From: Streptomyces aurantiacus
GTDB lineage: Bacteria; Actinomycetota; Actinomycetes; Streptomycetales; Streptomycetaceae
Direction of reading: 5' to 3'
NCBI RefSeq assembly: GCF_027107535.1
Contig: NZ_CP114283.1
Location: 7,812,001 to 7,876,000, forward strand
Length of the DNA stretch: 64,000 nt
Positions 17,976 through 60,996 of this stretch are shown in pieces. The stretch's first letter is position 1; every line of letters starts with the position of its first letter. Under the pieces are notes generated by a model. It was not told the origin of the DNA and ran no database searches. It saw only the letters and a program-made list of their open reading frames with translations. A program made the translations under genes and the position numbers.

Positions 17976-20900
17976 TCAAGTGGGTGGGACGGGAGTCTCA
18001 TTATGTGAACGGAGCGCGATGCCGGTTCCGTAGCCGCCCGAGGCCGCCCCGGCCGCGTAGACGTTCGTGCTCCCACCTGCGTAGATGCCGCTTGCACCGC
18101 CTCCCACGAAGACGGGCTCGACGGGGCCGTGGGGCATGGGGTAGGCGCCCCCCGCCAGGGCCCGGCGCAGTCGGTACTCGTCCAGCGGCCCGGAGAAGGC
18201 GACACCCTGTCCGTGGGTGCAGCCCATCGAGCGCAGGGCGATGACCTGCTCGGGCAGATCCACTCCGTCGGCCACGGACTGCAGTCCCAGGTCGTTGGCG
18301 ATGCGCAGCAGCCCGCTGGTGATCTTGTGGAGCCGGGCGGACTCGACGACGCCCTCGACCAGACCGCGGTCGAGTTTCAGTATGTCCACGGGCAGGCGGC
18401 GCAGCGCGGTGATCGTGGCGTAGCCGCTGCCGAAGCCGTCCAGGGCGATCCGGACGCCGAGACGCCTGAGCGTGTTCAGCCGGCGCTCCAGCTCGTCCAG
18501 GGAGATCTTGGGATCGGTTTCGGCCAGTTCCACGATCAGTGCGCCGGAGGGCAGGCCGTGCCGGGTCAGCAGGGCCTCGACCGAGCTGAGGGGCATGGAG
18601 CGGTCGAGGAGCCGGCGGGCGGTCATCCGGACGGCGATGGGTACGGCGAGCCCGGTGGCGGCGCGCTCGGCGGCCTGCTCGACGGCCTCCTCCAGCATCC
18701 AGCGGCCGAGCTCGGCGGTGCGCTCGTTGTCCTCGGCGACGCGCAGGAACTCCGCGGGGGTGAACAGCACGCCCTGGGCGGAGCGCCAGCGCGCCTGTGC
18801 GGCCACCGCCGTGATCCGGCCGGTGTCCAGGGAGACCACGGGCTGGTGCAGCAGTGCGAACTCGCCGTCGTGCAGGGCGGCGCGCAGCCGGGTGGCCAGC
18901 TCCGCCTTCCGTACGACGTCCTGCTGCATCTGTGGCGCGTACAGCTCGACGCGGCCCTTGCCCGCCGCCTTCGCCCGGTACATCGCCAGGTCCGCGTTGC
19001 GCAGCAGTTCACCGGCTCCCAGGCCCGGCTCGGAGAAGGCCACACCGATGGAGGCGGCGACCCGGACATCGTTGCCGTCGATGAGGTACGGCTGCGAGAG
19101 GGTCTTGCGGAGGCGGTCGGCCAGCTCGAAGATGTGGCGCTCGCGCGCGGTGCGGTCACGGGTGCCGTCACCGACGATCAGGGCCGCGAACTCGTCGCCG
19201 CCGAGCCGGGAGGCGGTGTCCCCGTACCGGACGGCGTCCTGGAGCCTGCGGGCGGCCTGTACGAGGAGCTCGTCACCGGCCTGGTGCCCGATCGTGTCGT
19301 TGACCGCTTTGAATCCGTCGAGGTCGATGAAGAGCACGGCGGTGCCGTGGTCGGAGGAGCGGCGGCCGGACAGCGCCTGTCCGACGCGCTTGGTGAACAG
19401 GGCGCGGTTGGGCAGGTCGGTGAGCGGGTCGTGCTCGGCGTTGTGCTGCAGCTGGGCCTGGAGGCGGACCCGCTCGGTGACGTCACGGCTGTTGAAGATG
19501 AGGCCGCCGTGGTGGCGGTTGACGGTCGACTCGACGTTGAGCCAGCCTCCTTCACCGGACCTGAAACGGCACTCGATGCGGGTGGTGGGCTCCTCGGCGG
19601 GGTCGGCGGCGAGGAAGCGGCGCACCTCGTGCACCACGCAGCCCAGGTCCTCCGGGTGGATGAGCGAGGCGAGTTCGGAGCCGACCAGGTCCTCGGCGGG
19701 CCGCCCGTAGACCCCGGCCGCGGCCGGGCTGACGTACCGGAGGATGCCGTTCGGGGCGGCGATCATGATGACGTCGCTGGAGCCCTGCACCAGGGAGCGG
19801 AAGTGGTTCTCCTTCTGGGCCAGCTCCTGGGTGAGGGTGATGTTGTCGATGAGCATGATGCCCTGGCGCACGACGAGGGCGAGCACGACCGTGCCGCCGG
19901 TGACGAGCACGACGCGGTCGACGCTGCGGCCGTTGAGCACGTTGTAGAGAATCCCCAGCGTGCAGACCGCGGCGGCCAGGTAGGGAGTGAGTGCCGCCAG
20001 CGAACTGGTGATGGGCCTGCTGGCCGGATACCGACTGTGACCTCCTTCCTGGAGGGGCACGAGTGCCGGTTCTCCCTGCCGGGGCCCGGGCACGTAGCCG
20101 TACACCACGCGCGTGTGCCCCTCTTCTTCCGTGGGTCCGTTCCGGTGCCCCACCCAGGGGGCGTAGGCGAGCAGCAGCGATCCGGCGAACCAGCCGGCGT
20201 CGAGCAACTGCCCCGAGCGGTAGTCGTTGTGCAGCAGTGGCGAGGTGAACAGGGCGTCGCACATCACCGTCAGGGCCAGCGCCCCGATCGCGGTGTTCAC
20301 CGCGGAGCGGTTCACCGCCGAGCGCCTGAAGTGCAGTGCGAGCACCATGCTCACGAGGGCGATGTCCAGCAGCGGATACGCGAGCGACAGGGCGGTGTGG
20401 GGCACGCTCGGCCCCTCCGCCTTCGCCGCCTGGGCGAGCGCCAGACTCCAGGAGAGCGTGAGCAGCGAGCCGCCGATCAGCCAGGCGTCGAGGCCCAGAC
20501 AGACCCACCCGGCCTTGCTCACCGGCCGTTTGGCGAGGACGAGCAGTCCCACGATGGCCGGCGGTGCGAAGCACAGGAAGAACAGGTCGGCGTAGCTCGG
20601 GCTGGGCACCGGGCGGTTCAGGACGACCTCGTACCAGCCCCAGACGAGGTTGCCGGCCGCCGCCATCGCGGAGGAGAGCGAGAAGAGAAGCCAGGCAGGT
20701 CGAAAGCGGCTGCGGCGGGCACGGGCGCACAGGAAGCAGGAGACGGCCGCCGCGGAGGCCGCCGCGCTCAGCCCGAAGTCGCCCATGATCAGAGCGAGTC
20801 GGTGCGAGCCCCAGCCGAGCGCGGAACCGACCGCGTATGCCGCGCACATCAGGGCGAGCATGAGCTGCGGGACCGTGCCGGGTCCGCCTCCGGTGGCCGG

Positions 20901-21224
20901 GCGGCGGGCCTGCAACGCCACCGGGGAGCTCACTGTGCCTCTCCGGTCCGCCCCGCCCCCGAGTCCCTCTGGTCCCGGCGGGCCGGATGCGCGTGCCTCC
21001 TGCGACCGCTCGGCCTTCGATGGTGATGGCCGCTGTGGCCGCGTCTGCGCGCGGGTGGACACCAGGGTCGCCGTCGGCGGCCCCGCCGCGTCGGATCGTT
21101 GGTCCATAGGCCGTGCATCGCCCGTCGCCCCCCTCGCTGTTGCTGTCTCTCGATCCCCGGCGCCGAATGATGCGCGGCGCAGCCCCTGTCGGGACGATAC
21201 ACCAGTCTCGTCACTCAGGGACAT
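17976..21224 (-). CDS. Membrane GGDEF/EAL protein, probable diguanylate cyclase with a degenerate EAL domain (CdgC type)
   Basis: A 1082-residue protein; the start ATG at 21224 sits five bases after AGAGGA. Order: disordered N terminus (1-115), about ten membrane helices (116-455), PAS sensor (about 468-588), GGDEF domain (595-765), EAL-like domain (775-1025) and a Gly-rich tail. The GGDEF motif (675-679) is intact, and the product-inhibition motif RYGD (666-669) stands exactly five residues before it. The EAL domain has lost key positions: AAQ instead of EAL (808-810), VRM for NVS, DGFG for DDFG and DGVD for EGVE. I expect cyclic-di-GMP synthesis and no hydrolysis. In Streptomyces this second messenger, acting through BldD, governs the switch to development. 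The name CdgC rests on domain order and recalled synteny. Confidence 0.9.
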   Translation of the reverse strand: MSLSDETGVSSRQGLRRASFGAGDRETATARGATGDARPMDQRSDAAGPPTATLVSTRAQTRPQRPSPSKAERSQEARASGPPGPEGLGGGADRRGTVSSPVALQARRPATGGGPGTVPQLMLALMCAAYAVGSALGWGSHRLALIMGDFGLSAAASAAAVSCFLCARARRSRFRPAWLLFSLSSAMAAAGNLVWGWYEVVLNRPVPSPSYADLFFLCFAPPAIVGLLVLAKRPVSKAGWVCLGLDAWLIGGSLLTLSWSLALAQAAKAEGPSVPHTALSLAYPLLDIALVSMVLALHFRRSAVNRSAVNTAIGALALTVMCDALFTSPLLHNDYRSGQLLDAGWFAGSLLLAYAPWVGHRNGPTEEEGHTRVVYGYVPGPRQGEPALVPLQEGGHSRYPASRPITSSLAALTPYLAAAVCTLGILYNVLNGRSVDRVVLVTGGTVVLALVVRQGIMLIDNITLTQELAQKENHFRSLVQGSSDVIMIAAPNGILRYVSPAAAGVYGRPAEDLVGSELASLIHPEDLGCVVHEVRRFLAADPAEEPTTRIECRFRSGEGGWLNVESTVNRHHGGLIFNSRDVTERVRLQAQLQHNAEHDPLTDLPNRALFTKRVGQALSGRRSSDHGTAVLFIDLDGFKAVNDTIGHQAGDELLVQAARRLQDAVRYGDTASRLGGDEFAALIVGDGTRDRTARERHIFELADRLRKTLSQPYLIDGNDVRVAASIGVAFSEPGLGAGELLRNADLAMYRAKAAGKGRVELYAPQMQQDVVRKAELATRLRAALHDGEFALLHQPVVSLDTGRITAVAAQARWRSAQGVLFTPAEFLRVAEDNERTAELGRWMLEEAVEQAAERAATGLAVPIAVRMTARRLLDRSMPLSSVEALLTRHGLPSGALIVELAETDPKISLDELERRLNTLRRLGVRIALDGFGSGYATITALRRLPVDILKLDRGLVEGVVESARLHKITSGLLRIANDLGLQSVADGVDLPEQVIALRSMGCTHGQGVAFSGPLDEYRLRRALAGGAYPMPHGPVEPVFVGGGASGIYAGGSTNVYAAGAASGGYGTGIALRSHNETPVPPT

Positions 21225-38973: not shown

Positions 38974-41274
38974 CTACTCGTCAGCCGCCGCGGGCAACGC
39001 CGCGGGCAGCGCCGCGGCGGGCCGCTGCCACCCCCGCGCGCCCCGGGCGAGCAGCCACGCGGTGGCCTCCTCCGGAGGCATCGCCGCGGCCACGAGCCAC
39101 CCCTGAACCGCGTCGCACCCGAGGTCCCGCAGCCGCTCCCACGTCTCGTCGTCCTCGACACCCTCGGCGACGACCACCAGCCCGAGCGAATGGGCGAGAT
39201 CGATGGTGCACCGGACGATCTCGGCGTCCTCGGTGTCCACCGCGAGCCGGGCCACGAAGGACCGGTCGATCTTCAGCTCGCTCACGGGCAGCCGCCGCAG
39301 ATGCACCAGCGACGAGTACCCGGTCCCGAAGTCGTCGAGCGACATCTTCACGCCGTGTGCGGTCAGCCCGGCCAGGGTGTCCGCGGCCCGCTGCGGGTCC
39401 TCCAGCAGCACGTGTTCCGTTATCTCCAGCTGAAGCGCCCCCGCGGGAACCCCGTGCCGGGCCAGCCGCGCGGCCACCGATCCGGCGAACCCGGGCGTGT
39501 GCACGTCCCGCGGTGACACGTTGACGGCGACCGGGACCCGCAGTCCACGGGCCCGCCAGCTCGCCACCTGCGCGAGCGCCTTCTCCAGCACGTACTCGGT
39601 CAGATGCGGCATCAGACCGGACGACTCGGCGATGGCTATGAACTCGTCCGGCGGTACCTTCCCGCGCTCGGGATGCACCCACCGCACGAGCGCCTCCAAC
39701 CCGGCCACCTGCCCGTCGAAGCGCACCTTCGGCTGGTAGTGCAGTTCGACGTCGCCCGTGTCGAGCGCCCGCCGCAGATCCCCCAGCAGCCCGAGCCGGT
39801 CAGGGGTGTTGGAGTCCCGCTTGGACTCGTAGACCTCCACCCCCGTGCGGTCCCTCTTCGCCTGGTACATCGCGACGTCCGCCCGCCGCAGCAGCCCCTC
39901 CGCGTCGAGTGCGTGGTCGGGGAAGACCGCGAGCCCCGCGCTGGCCTCCAGGACGAGCGTCAGCCCGTCCAGGTCGAGCGGTGATCCCAGCATCGTCACG
40001 AGATTGCGGGCGACCCGCGTCGCGGACGTCGTCGAGTCGACGATCGGCAGTAACACGGCGAACTCGTCCCCGCCGAGCCGCGCGGCCTCCGCCCCGCGCG
40101 GCAGTGCGACCCGCAGCCGGTCCGCTATCTGCAACAGCAGCCGGTCCCCGGCGAGATGCCCGAGCGTGTCATTCACGGCCCTGAAGCGGTCGAGGTCGAT
40201 CAGCATCAGCGCCGAACGTGCACCGATTCGCTCGGCATCGTCCAGCGCCCGCCAGGTCCGTTCGAGAAGCCACTGCCGGTTGGGCAGCCCGGTGAGGGGG
40301 TCACGCAGTTGCTCCTCGGCCCGGGCGCGCGCTATCCAGAGCGTGGAGTCGAGAGCGATGAGGGGGACGGAGAAGAGCGGCAGGAGCGCGGGGAGTGCGA
40401 TGGCGACGACGCAGATCAGCGGGGCGATGCCGAGCAGCGCGACGGCCACCAGCCCCTGTCTGGCCAGGGCGGTACGGGCCACGGTCGGCAGTCCGGCGGT
40501 ACGCGGCGCATGGAGGTACCAGAGCAGCGCGCGGGTGACCCCGAGATACGCCCCGGCCACCAACACCACCGAAGGCGCGGTGTAGAGGGTCCAGGTCTCC
40601 GGCTTCCAGGGCGTCTCGACGGACGGCACCCGGCCGAACGCGGCCAGTACCAGCGCCCCGGCGCCGATGCCCAGCATGTCCACGGCGCCGTGCAGGACAC
40701 CCTGGCGCCAGCGGTGGCGGCGGGCTATGCCGACGAGGACGACGACGGTGAGGCTGACCATTCCGGCCGGCACCCAGCCGTACAGCAGCAGGACGGCCAG
40801 CGTGAGGGCCGCTCCTGAACCGGTGCCGCCCCACCAGCGGGAACGGCCGAGCGCGACGAGGTGGCCGACGATGATGCCGACCAGGACGGCCAGCGCCCAG
40901 CCGACGGACCCCGACGGGAAGAGGGCGTGGTGCCCGGTGAAGGCCCGGTAGAACCCCGCGCCCAGCACGAAGGCGGCGGCCGTGACGACCGCCGCGGGCA
41001 GCGCGGGCCAGGACTGCTGGTCGGCCTCCTGGCCCGGCATCCGGGAGTGGGATCCGGAGGCGGCGGTGGGACGGCCGGGGCCCTGCCCGTGCATCGTGCT
41101 CCGCTGTCCGACGGCGTATCCCGGCGGGCCCGGTCGCACCGGGGGCCCGGCGACCCCGAGACCCGCTGTGAACTCCCGGCTTCGCTGGAGCAAGGGGTGA
41201 CCCCACCGCCGCACGCCGGTCATCCAGCGTGGGCGCAGCCGTGAGTCCGGGGAGGCGCTCTCGGTCGGTTCCAT
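38974..41274 (-). CDS. rmdB: Membrane GGDEF/EAL protein with intact EAL (RmdB-type c-di-GMP phosphodiesterase); contains a TTA codon
   Basis: A 766-residue protein; the ATG at 41274 follows GAGAGGGACGGGA. Order: disordered head (1-88), six or seven membrane helices (90-310), GGDEF domain (320-485) and EAL domain (500-745). The GGDEF motif (401-405) is present but the inhibitory RxxD site is not. The EAL domain keeps every catalytic group: GLEAL (525-529), VAVNVS, EITE, LDDFGTGYSSL, KIDRSF, AEGVE and QGW. Hydrolysis of cyclic-di-GMP is therefore expected. RmdB of S. coelicolor, as I recall it, is such an enzyme and lies next to ligA, as here. Codon 408, three residues after the GGDEF motif, is TTA (40051-40053), so full translation should need the bldA tRNA. 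Confidence 0.92.
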   Translation of the reverse strand: MEPTESASPDSRLRPRWMTGVRRWGHPLLQRSREFTAGLGVAGPPVRPGPPGYAVGQRSTMHGQGPGRPTAASGSHSRMPGQEADQQSWPALPAAVVTAAAFVLGAGFYRAFTGHHALFPSGSVGWALAVLVGIIVGHLVALGRSRWWGGTGSGAALTLAVLLLYGWVPAGMVSLTVVVLVGIARRHRWRQGVLHGAVDMLGIGAGALVLAAFGRVPSVETPWKPETWTLYTAPSVVLVAGAYLGVTRALLWYLHAPRTAGLPTVARTALARQGLVAVALLGIAPLICVVAIALPALLPLFSVPLIALDSTLWIARARAEEQLRDPLTGLPNRQWLLERTWRALDDAERIGARSALMLIDLDRFRAVNDTLGHLAGDRLLLQIADRLRVALPRGAEAARLGGDEFAVLLPIVDSTTSATRVARNLVTMLGSPLDLDGLTLVLEASAGLAVFPDHALDAEGLLRRADVAMYQAKRDRTGVEVYESKRDSNTPDRLGLLGDLRRALDTGDVELHYQPKVRFDGQVAGLEALVRWVHPERGKVPPDEFIAIAESSGLMPHLTEYVLEKALAQVASWRARGLRVPVAVNVSPRDVHTPGFAGSVAARLARHGVPAGALQLEITEHVLLEDPQRAADTLAGLTAHGVKMSLDDFGTGYSSLVHLRRLPVSELKIDRSFVARLAVDTEDAEIVRCTIDLAHSLGLVVVAEGVEDDETWERLRDLGCDAVQGWLVAAAMPPEEATAWLLARGARGWQRPAAALPAALPAAADE

Positions 41275-58129: not shown

Positions 58130-59920
58130 TTACTTCTTCAGAGCCAGGTTCACGAAGTCGTACTGACCGCTGTAGTTGTCGGTCGTGTAGACGTTCGCGA
58201 GGTTGCTGCCACGCCAGTTGACGAACTTCTCGAAGACGAAGGGCAGGTAGTAGCCGCCCTCCATGACCTTGTGGTTGATCTCCGTGGAGAGCTCGACCTT
58301 CTTCGCCTCGTCGAGCTCCTTGACGTAGTCGTCGAAGAGGCCGTCGATCGTCTTGTCCTTGATCAGGGCGAAGTTGTTGTTGCCGCTCTCAAGGATGTAC
58401 TTGCCGCTCCACAGCGGCAGACCGAAGCCCTGGACGGTCGGGAAGTCCGGACCCCAGCCCATGATGATGATGCCGTAGTTCTTCTTCTTGACGTTCGCGG
58501 GGCTGCCGATGATGCCGCTGGTCTGCGCGCCGTCGTACTGGTCGATCTCGGCGGTGATGCCGACCTTCTTCAGCGAGGCCTGGAGGGACTCGGCGGTGGC
58601 GACCTCGACCGGCTTGTTGTTGCGGACCGCGATGGTGGTCTTGAAGCCGTTCGGCTGGCCGCAGGCCTTCAGCTCTTCCTTGGCCTTGGCGACGTTGCCC
58701 TTCTTGTTCGTCGTGGCCGACTCGTACGGGTCGTACTTCTGGCCCTCGGCGCCCGGGACGGACGGCGGCAGCATGTTGGTGCCGATGTCACCACCGGCCA
58801 CCGGGCCACCGCGCGCGGTCTGCAGCGACTCGTGGTCGGCGCCGTAGATCACGGCCTTGCGGCAGTGCTCGTTGTCGAACGGCTTGACGCTCTGCGGGAA
58901 GACCGCGTAGCGGACGTAGCCGGAGACCGGGTTGTCCAGGTTGCCCTTGTGCTGCTTCAGGGCGGTGGTGCGGCCCTGCGGGGACATGCCGGTCTGGTTG
59001 ATGTCCAGGTCGTAGTCGCCGTTGATCAGACGCTGGTCCATGTCATTGGCGTTGGTGAACAGGGTCAGCGTGATCTTGTCCGGGTACGCCTTGCGGATCT
59101 TGTCCGAGGACGCCTTCCACTCCGGGTTGCGGACCAGGGTCAGCGACTTGTTCGGCGTGTACGACTCGAACTTGTACGGGCCGGACGAGAACGGCTTCAG
59201 GCCGTACTTGGACTTGGTGTCCTTGTCCTGGCGGACCGGCGAGGAGGAGGCCAGCGCCAGCATGTCCTCGAAGTCCGAGTTGGCCTGCGGCAGCTTGAAG
59301 ACGATGGTCTTGTCGTCCGGCGTCTCGATCGCCTTCAGACCCAGCTTGTCCGCGGACTTGTCCTTGTACGGGCCCTTGTACTCGCCCTTGGGGTCGAGGA
59401 CGTCCTTCAGGTAGACCGGACCGCCGGACAGCACGTCCTGCGCCCACTGACGCTCGATGCCGTACTTGACGTCCTTGGAGGTGATCGGCTTGCCGTCCTC
59501 CCAGGTCACCCCGTCACGCAGTGTGTAGGTGTACGTCTTGCCGTCGTCGCTGATCTTCGCCGTGCTGGTGGCGAGGTCCGGGGAGAGCTCGGCGCCCTTG
59601 GCACCGGGCTCGGCGTTGCCGGTCACCAGCGTGCGGCTGTAGTACCGCATGAAGTTCCAGGCGAAGCCGTAGTAGCCACGCGTGGTGTCCCACGAGTCGG
59701 CGTCCTGGACGCCCGCGAACTTCAGCGTGCCGCCCTTCTTGGCGAGGGAGGCCTGCGCGACCTTGTTGTTCGCCGCGTTGAAGCCGGCCGCGCCGTTCTT
59801 CGAGCCGCCGTCGTCGTCGTTGCCGCCGCCGCCGCACGCCGCCGTGGACAGCAGTGCAGCGACCACGGCTGCGGCGGCCGCAGCCTGCTTACGCCGCCCT
59901 GTGGTGCGTTGGGTAATCAC
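58130..59920 (-). CDS. Oligopeptide-binding lipoprotein (SBP_bac_5)
   Basis: A 596-residue lipoprotein. The start is GTG at 59920, seven bases after GGAGG. The signal peptide ends at lipobox STAAC, followed by a Gly/Asn/Asp linker. The family segments are KTYTYTLRDGVTWEDGKPIT and SSGPYKFESYTPNKSLTLVR, and further on MSPQGRTT and GADHESLQTARGG. It captures peptides at the outer face of the membrane for the permease. Peptide uptake of this kind supplies nutrients and signals during development. It is the second gene of the operon, after the DppC-like permease. Confidence 0.94.
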   Translation of the reverse strand: MITQRTTGRRKQAAAAAAVVAALLSTAACGGGGNDDDGGSKNGAAGFNAANNKVAQASLAKKGGTLKFAGVQDADSWDTTRGYYGFAWNFMRYYSRTLVTGNAEPGAKGAELSPDLATSTAKISDDGKTYTYTLRDGVTWEDGKPITSKDVKYGIERQWAQDVLSGGPVYLKDVLDPKGEYKGPYKDKSADKLGLKAIETPDDKTIVFKLPQANSDFEDMLALASSSPVRQDKDTKSKYGLKPFSSGPYKFESYTPNKSLTLVRNPEWKASSDKIRKAYPDKITLTLFTNANDMDQRLINGDYDLDINQTGMSPQGRTTALKQHKGNLDNPVSGYVRYAVFPQSVKPFDNEHCRKAVIYGADHESLQTARGGPVAGGDIGTNMLPPSVPGAEGQKYDPYESATTNKKGNVAKAKEELKACGQPNGFKTTIAVRNNKPVEVATAESLQASLKKVGITAEIDQYDGAQTSGIIGSPANVKKKNYGIIIMGWGPDFPTVQGFGLPLWSGKYILESGNNNFALIKDKTIDGLFDDYVKELDEAKKVELSTEINHKVMEGGYYLPFVFEKFVNWRGSNLANVYTTDNYSGQYDFVNLALKK

Positions 59921-59982
59921 TCGGATCCTCCGTGTGTGTAGCGGCCCGTCGACAGATGACGGGGCCCTGGGGGTACGGCAGT

Positions 59983-60996
59983 TCAGCGGGAACCCTTCGG
60001 GTCGAGCGCATCGCGTACGCCGTCGCCGAAGAGGTTGAAGGAGAGCACGGTGATGAAGATCGCTACACCCGGGATGACCATGTACATCGGATCCGAGTCG
60101 TAGTAGTCGATCGCGGAGGAGAGCATCTGCCCCCACGAGGCGGAGGGCGGCTTGACGCCCACGCCCAGGAAGCTCAGCGCCGCCTCGGTCAGGATGTTGG
60201 TCGGGATCATCATCGTCGTGTAGACGATGATCGGCGCGACCAGGTTGGGCAGCAGTTCCTTGAACAGGATGTAGAAGCGGCCCGCCCCGAGGCTGCGCGC
60301 GGCCTCGACGTACTCGCGCTCGCGCATGGACAGCGTCTGGCCGCGCACCACACGTCCGACATAGGGCCAGCCGAAGAAGCCGATCACCAGGATCATGACG
60401 AACAGGCGCACGCCCGTGCCGGTCAGGCCCAGCATCTCGTTCGGCATGACCGAGACCAGCGCGATGATGAAGAGCAGCTGCGGGAAGGCCAGCAGGCCGT
60501 CCATCACCCGGCTGATGACGGCGTCCAGCCAGCCGCCGAAGTAGCCGGCGAGTACGCCGAGGACGGTGCCGAGCACCACCGCGACCAACGCCGACAGGAA
60601 GCCGACCAGGAGCGACACCCGGGCGCCGTAGACGATCCGGGCGAAGATGTCGCGGCCGCTGACCGGTTCGACACCGAAGAGGTGGTCCCCGCTGATGCCG
60701 CCGAAGGACCCGGTGGGAGTCGAGAAGAGCGGGTCGATCAGGTCCTCGTGGTGGGTCTCGGGGTCCTGGCCGACCAGACTCGTGATCACGGGAGCGAACA
60801 GCGCGATCAGGATCAGCACGAGTACGACGACACCGCCCGTCAGGGCGAGCTTGTCCCGCTTCAGGCGCTCCCAGGCGATGCGGCCGAGGGAACGCCCCTG
60901 TACCGCCTTCGCCTCGGCGGAGCCCGCGGCGAGCGCCGCCTCCTCGGCCGCACTCGGGGCGGCTTCGGCCGTCGGCTCGTGCAATGGTGCCGTCAT
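59983..60996 (-). CDS. Oligopeptide ABC importer permease, DppC/OppC-like
   Basis: A 337-residue permease and the first gene of the operon. A cytoplasmic Ala/Glu-rich head is followed by ERLKRDKLALTGGVVVLVLI (first helix), DHLFGVEPVSGRDIFARIVY, the coupling loop REYVEAARSLGAGRFYILFK followed by ELLPN, and EAALSFLGVGVKPPSASWG. The start is taken as ATG 60996 (MTAPLHEP), with GAGAGGGG upstream; ATG 61074 would add 26 residues of doubtful coding character. The partner permease is encoded after the binding protein, an unusual split of the two permease genes. Confidence 0.93.
   Translation of the reverse strand: MTAPLHEPTAEAAPSAAEEAALAAGSAEAKAVQGRSLGRIAWERLKRDKLALTGGVVVLVLILIALFAPVITSLVGQDPETHHEDLIDPLFSTPTGSFGGISGDHLFGVEPVSGRDIFARIVYGARVSLLVGFLSALVAVVLGTVLGVLAGYFGGWLDAVISRVMDGLLAFPQLLFIIALVSVMPNEMLGLTGTGVRLFVMILVIGFFGWPYVGRVVRGQTLSMREREYVEAARSLGAGRFYILFKELLPNLVAPIIVYTTMMIPTNILTEAALSFLGVGVKPPSASWGQMLSSAIDYYDSDPMYMVIPGVAIFITVLSFNLFGDGVRDALDPKGSR

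Follow-up and report, generated by a model that had tools for sequence, protein, structure and literature searches.

The window analyzed here, a stretch of 64,000 nucleotides from Streptomyces aurantiacus, carries on its minus strand a gene of the RmdB type and, about 20 kb away, a cdgC-like gene (Table 1). The product of the former has the domain order of the RmdB type, namely N-terminal membrane segments (recognized by hydropathy only), a GGDEF domain, and an EAL domain, and both the GGDEF and the EALVR motifs are intact in its translation. In a published table, rmdB of S. ghanaensis encodes a 6TM-GGDEF-EAL protein and has the orthologues sco5495 and sven5165; cdgC corresponds to sco5511 (PMC7911125). 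Following that table, we identified the window gene as rmdB from its architecture and its nearness to the cdgC-like gene rather than from a direct comparison with SCO5495. Hydrolysis of c-di-GMP by the encoded protein is putative, the activity of orthologues being known from the literature (PMC7026642, PMC7911125).

Table 1. Positions of the rmdB gene, its parts, and the cdgC-like neighbor in the window.
Feature	Position	Strand	Basis or remark
Gene of the RmdB type (766 aa; membrane segments, GGDEF, EAL)	38974..41274	minus	Pfam domains; genus orthologues
Membrane part: hydrophobic stretches toward the N terminus (residues about 88-315)	40330..41013	minus	hydropathy scan
GGDEF domain, residues 324-476, contains TTA-408	39847..40305	minus	Pfam
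GGDEF motif of rmdB	40060-40074	minus	sequence
Leucine codon TTA-408 in rmdB	40051..40053	minus	in frame; next codon CTG
EAL domain (phosphodiesterase), residues 499-730, encoded after TTA-408	39085..39780	minus	Pfam
cdgC-like PAS-GGDEF-EAL gene, a control gene; window copy TTA-free	17976..21218	minus	Pfam + ORF reading

The feature of interest is a single leucine codon. Read directly, the plus-strand letters at its position are TAA, giving TTA on the coding strand, and 1077 bases separate it from the end of the gene. Because the codon lies in frame in an open reading frame that extends from GTG 41310 or ATG 41274 down to a stop ending at 38974, a wrong-frame reading was ruled out. Counted from ATG 41274, it is codon 408 and encodes the third residue past the GGDEF motif, as the sequence-only reading had placed it. 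That number depends on the start, however, and the candidate starts of rmdB give 420, 413, 408, and 391, among others. The same reading had found no in-frame TTA in the other genes of the window, which holds for the convincing ones: of these, rmdB alone contains a TTA in frame. Among 47 open reading frames picked by codon composition, a second TTA is in frame at 59889, in a dubious plus-strand frame (59682-60038) whose codon composition is poor and which overlaps the last part of a better one.

When the number of genes per genome is used to derive an expectation for a window, about one TTA gene per window matches the genus average, and the mere presence of a TTA is therefore no more than chance. 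For Streptomyces, that average is 177 TTA genes per genome (PMC10327506). Retention within the clade to which the window belongs exceeds such chance-like presence: TTA-408 occurs in 63 of its 85 rows at a GC3 of 0.934, as against 11 of 85 for the next A/T-ending leucine codon.

In an even sample of 91 genomes of the genus, the window's own included, we found one rmdB match at E 1e-150 in 90 (the others being 66-91% identical), and all 90 were read; the sole genome without a match at this cutoff (G066) is 82% complete. Codon 408 was CTG in 51 orthologues, TTA in 24, CTC in 12, TTG in 2, and CTT in 1. Conservation among orthologues was one of the two grounds on which the sequence-only reading had asked to be judged. 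Genus-wide it did not hold, as TTA-408 is absent from 66 of the 90, but it did hold within the window's clade. A genus-wide, position-conserved TTA of the kind known from adpA was accordingly rejected. Of these 66 orthologues, 19 carry a TTA at another codon, compared with none of the 24 that have TTA-408. Altogether, 43 of the 90 contain some TTA and 47 contain none in the aligned part. The former fraction agrees with published counts, in which SCO5495 (rmdB) has a TTA in 7 of 14 Streptomyces and also in K. setae (PMC4255298, Table 2). A separate set made up of the best 80 matches, and thus biased to near relatives, gave TTA-408 in 40, with a TTA elsewhere in 8 of the other 40 and a second TTA in none of the TTA-408 rows. 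The three nearest relatives that were read are divided, with CTG at 408 in two (L041 and L151) and TTA in one (L152). Not counted in these figures are TTAs upstream of the aligned start, and possibly before the true start, in two loci of the even sample (L204 and L208) and three of the best 80 (L054, L065, and L115).

The history of the codon was reconstructed on a quickly built tree of the rmdB gene, not of the species, which comprised 166 rows after the removal of four identical ones and 168 with two outgroups. Parsimony placed a single gain of TTA-408 in the window's clade (85 rows, node label 99), followed by 13 losses; the outcome did not change across five gain costs between 1 and 10. 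Elsewhere in the genus, TTAs occur at 13 other codons (92, 102, 109, 157, 162, 193, 213, 233, 234, 275, 280, 305, and 356), which require about 16 changes (17 in the 166-row tree; 16 with outgroups, that is, 30 less the 14 at codon 408). All 13 precede codon 408 in the genus rows and so precede the EAL domain. Specifically, changes before and after codon 408 numbered 16:0 for non-408 TTA, compared with 11:9 for CTA, 140:107 for TTG, and 63:74 for CTT (Fisher p of 0.002 against CTA and 0.0003 against TTG). The absence of a second TTA from orthologues with TTA-408 gave a Fisher p of 0.002 on related tips and about 0.017 by branch length, which is only suggestive of mutual exclusion by selection.

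We compared these patterns with other rare codons of rmdB and with neighboring genes. For the latter, 40 genomes with long contigs were selected from the 90, and 20-kb stretches of them were searched with twelve window genes as queries; at a minimum of 45% identity and 60% coverage, ten of the twelve yielded 285 orthologues. Their 17961 leucine codons include 40 CTA and 7 TTA, and all 7 TTA are in cdgC, an orthologue of which is present in 37 of the 40 syntenic stretches. These cdgC codons occur singly in 7 of the 37 orthologues, at seven different positions, some of them by index in or near the EAL domain. No TTA was seen in orthologues of the nine other neighboring genes in the 40 genomes. 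When non-408 TTA was set against CTA in rmdB and in the controls, p was 0.006, or 5e-6 without cdgC, by a rough test that compares changes in rmdB with cells in the control genes. Lax codon use as the source of the rmdB TTAs was rejected on these grounds, since TTA is overrepresented and, among the genus orthologues, confined to the first half of the gene, relative to CTA, TTG, and CTT and to the neighboring genes. This control is weakened, however, by the TTAs of cdgC and by a similar bias toward the first half of rmdB in several other rare codons that end in A (first:second half counts of 72:17 for AGA, 216:96 for GCA, and 52:13 for AAA, but 117:97 for ATA and 9:6 for CTA).

Retention is shared with other codons as well. 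TTA-408 is the third best kept A/T-ending codon in the clade, after GAA-2 and TCA-11, both of which are near the start. TCA-11 is kept in 76% of the rows, ATA-546 in 72%, CAT-373 in 68%, and AGA-272 in 60%; together with ATA-618, the rare ATA, CAT, and AGA codons are thus kept in 60-72% of the 85 rows despite the high GC3. These codons are kept about equally, so that retention by itself does not set TTA apart.

Beyond the genus, the patterns break. Among other genera of the family, where 25 of 35 matches were read, 11 orthologues have some TTA and three (L285, L293, and L298) have one inside the EAL domain. TTA-408 is present in two, L283 and L288, which belong to one other genus and carry a second TTA at codons 425 and 379, respectively; their TTA-408 is possibly of separate origin. 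Mutual exclusion therefore fails beyond the genus, and the upstream-only and one-at-a-time patterns hold within the window's genus at most. Five matches from outside the family (L146 to L150) have CTG at 408 and no TTA.

In the same genome, a tRNA-Leu gene with a TAA anticodon lies on the minus strand at about G000:C2:8755188-8755272 (L272:159-243 minus) and is likely the bldA gene. It was the single TAA anticodon among 42 of 71 tRNA matches that were read, including all 12 of class-II length, the remaining 29 all being of class-I length. Of the ten GGDEF loci in this genome, four contain a TTA in frame: rmdB, C2:8027404 (L005), C2:4915357 (L009), and C1:71611 (L007), in frames that were chosen by composition and partly cut by locus ends; the TTA of C1:71611 is near the start and may precede the true one. 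The last two loci, of which C1:71611 is on the smaller contig, share the residues PGSGALRLPSR around the TTA, and this similarity suggests a duplicated gene. No TTA was found in the examined frame stretches of the four other EAL genes of the genome, and total breakdown of c-di-GMP thus need not wait for bldA. All candidate BldD boxes near bldA or rmdB deviated from the consensus at two positions, and sites of that quality occur in the window at a density of about 0.5 per 401 bases.

Previous experiments have shown that a TTA can place rmdB under the control of bldA. The single TTA of rmdB in S. ghanaensis (ssfg_02196) is located before the EAL domain, and an RmdB-GusA fusion had no activity during the first 24 h, whereas a CTG version had low activity already at 18 h. 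In a bldA deletion, translation of rmdB almost ceased, and the version in which TTA was changed to CTG was unaffected (PMC7026642, 2020). The same work reports no direct binding of BldD at the rmdB promoter. The link between bldA and c-di-GMP, which the sequence-only reading had put forward, is therefore already in print. The S. aurantiacus gene is like that of S. ghanaensis in type, in its TM-GGDEF-EAL architecture, and in having one TTA ahead of the EAL domain. It differs in that bldA dependence was measured there and is inferred here.

A diguanylate phosphodiesterase gene of S. coelicolor, which is probably the same gene as SCO5495, has a TTA at nucleotides 1171-1173 that was counted among 11 TTA codons shared at the same position by at least 50% of species (PMC10327506, 2023). 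At codon 408 we found a lower share, 24 of 90 (27%), but the sampling differs and the sites compared may not be identical. Codon 391 of that report was not matched exactly: with the candidate starts of two TTA-408 loci, from S. tendae (L068) and S. parvulus (L062), the site becomes codon 392 and 390. As with adpA, one TTA would subject a developmental gene to bldA. The TTA of adpA, however, is present in all streptomycetes analyzed (PMC4255298, PMC7026642), while that of rmdB is not universal and changes place. Our literature searches on rmdB with TTA, which covered titles only and so give no proof of absence, brought up no title concerned with a shift of the TTA inside the gene. This positional turnover is a modest addition to a known finding.

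How TTA-408 acts in S. aurantiacus can be considered in light of these results. We think it probable that the codon makes full synthesis of the c-di-GMP phosphodiesterase dependent on the bldA tRNA, a tRNA-Leu that reads UUA, and that it thereby gates development. While this tRNA is scarce, ribosomes would stall at codon 408, within the GGDEF domain and ahead of the EAL domain, so that no active phosphodiesterase would be made and c-di-GMP would remain high. Once bldA matures, RmdB would be made, c-di-GMP would drop, BldD would be released, and development could proceed. We infer that the gene behaves in this strain as it does in S. ghanaensis and that stalling before the EAL domain is important; from the present analysis, the codon itself, its retention in the clade, and the tRNA-Leu(UAA) gene are in support, as are the lack of a second TTA in genus orthologues with TTA-408, the placement of the other TTAs before codon 408, and the scarcity of TTA in neighboring genes. 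Speaking against it are the orthologues without TTA-408 or any TTA, the CTG of two near relatives, and the comparable retention and first-half bias of other rare codons. The dependence of c-di-GMP turnover on bldA that the sequence-only reading proposed is in part supported, by the S. ghanaensis experiments and by this tRNA gene; against it, the site is not shared genus-wide, and the other EAL genes lack TTA in the stretches examined.

Alternatively, TTA-408 could be a relic of little effect, if the bldA tRNA is available early enough or UUA is misread with sufficient efficiency, in which case RmdB would not be delayed and other EAL proteins would set the level of c-di-GMP. The 13 losses inside the clade that gained the codon, the CTG in two of three nearest relatives read, the four EAL genes with no TTA in the examined stretches, and the 47 orthologues that are TTA-free in their aligned part are all consistent with such a relic. 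We nevertheless regard it as improbable, given that RmdB-GusA activity was nearly lost upon deletion of bldA in S. ghanaensis and was restored by CTG (PMC7026642), and that TTA-408 is kept far above any other A/T-ending leucine codon despite the GC3 of the clade. Even less credible, and in our judgment very hard to sustain, is the idea that the codon serves as a pause in translation during which the GGDEF domain folds, and not as a developmental gate. The similar retention of ATA-546, CAT-373, ATA-618, and AGA-272 is what a pause model predicts. A fixed pause site, however, would not account for the TTAs that other lineages of the genus carry at 13 further codons, and the CTG fusion of S. ghanaensis was still active, and earlier than the TTA form (PMC7026642).

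A further reading is that rmdB has been brought under bldA control repeatedly, through TTAs arising at different places, with selection favoring a single TTA anywhere ahead of the EAL domain over one at a particular codon; we offer this view tentatively, as somewhat less than an even prospect.

Our findings on TTA-408 agree with the published link between the bldA switch and the breakdown of c-di-GMP, and they indicate that this link is lineage-dependent. With about half of the genus orthologues TTA-free in the aligned part, the results from S. ghanaensis should not be transferred to every Streptomyces. The turnover of the codon offers a natural set of strains, with TTA-408, with a TTA elsewhere, or with none, in which effects on timing can be compared.
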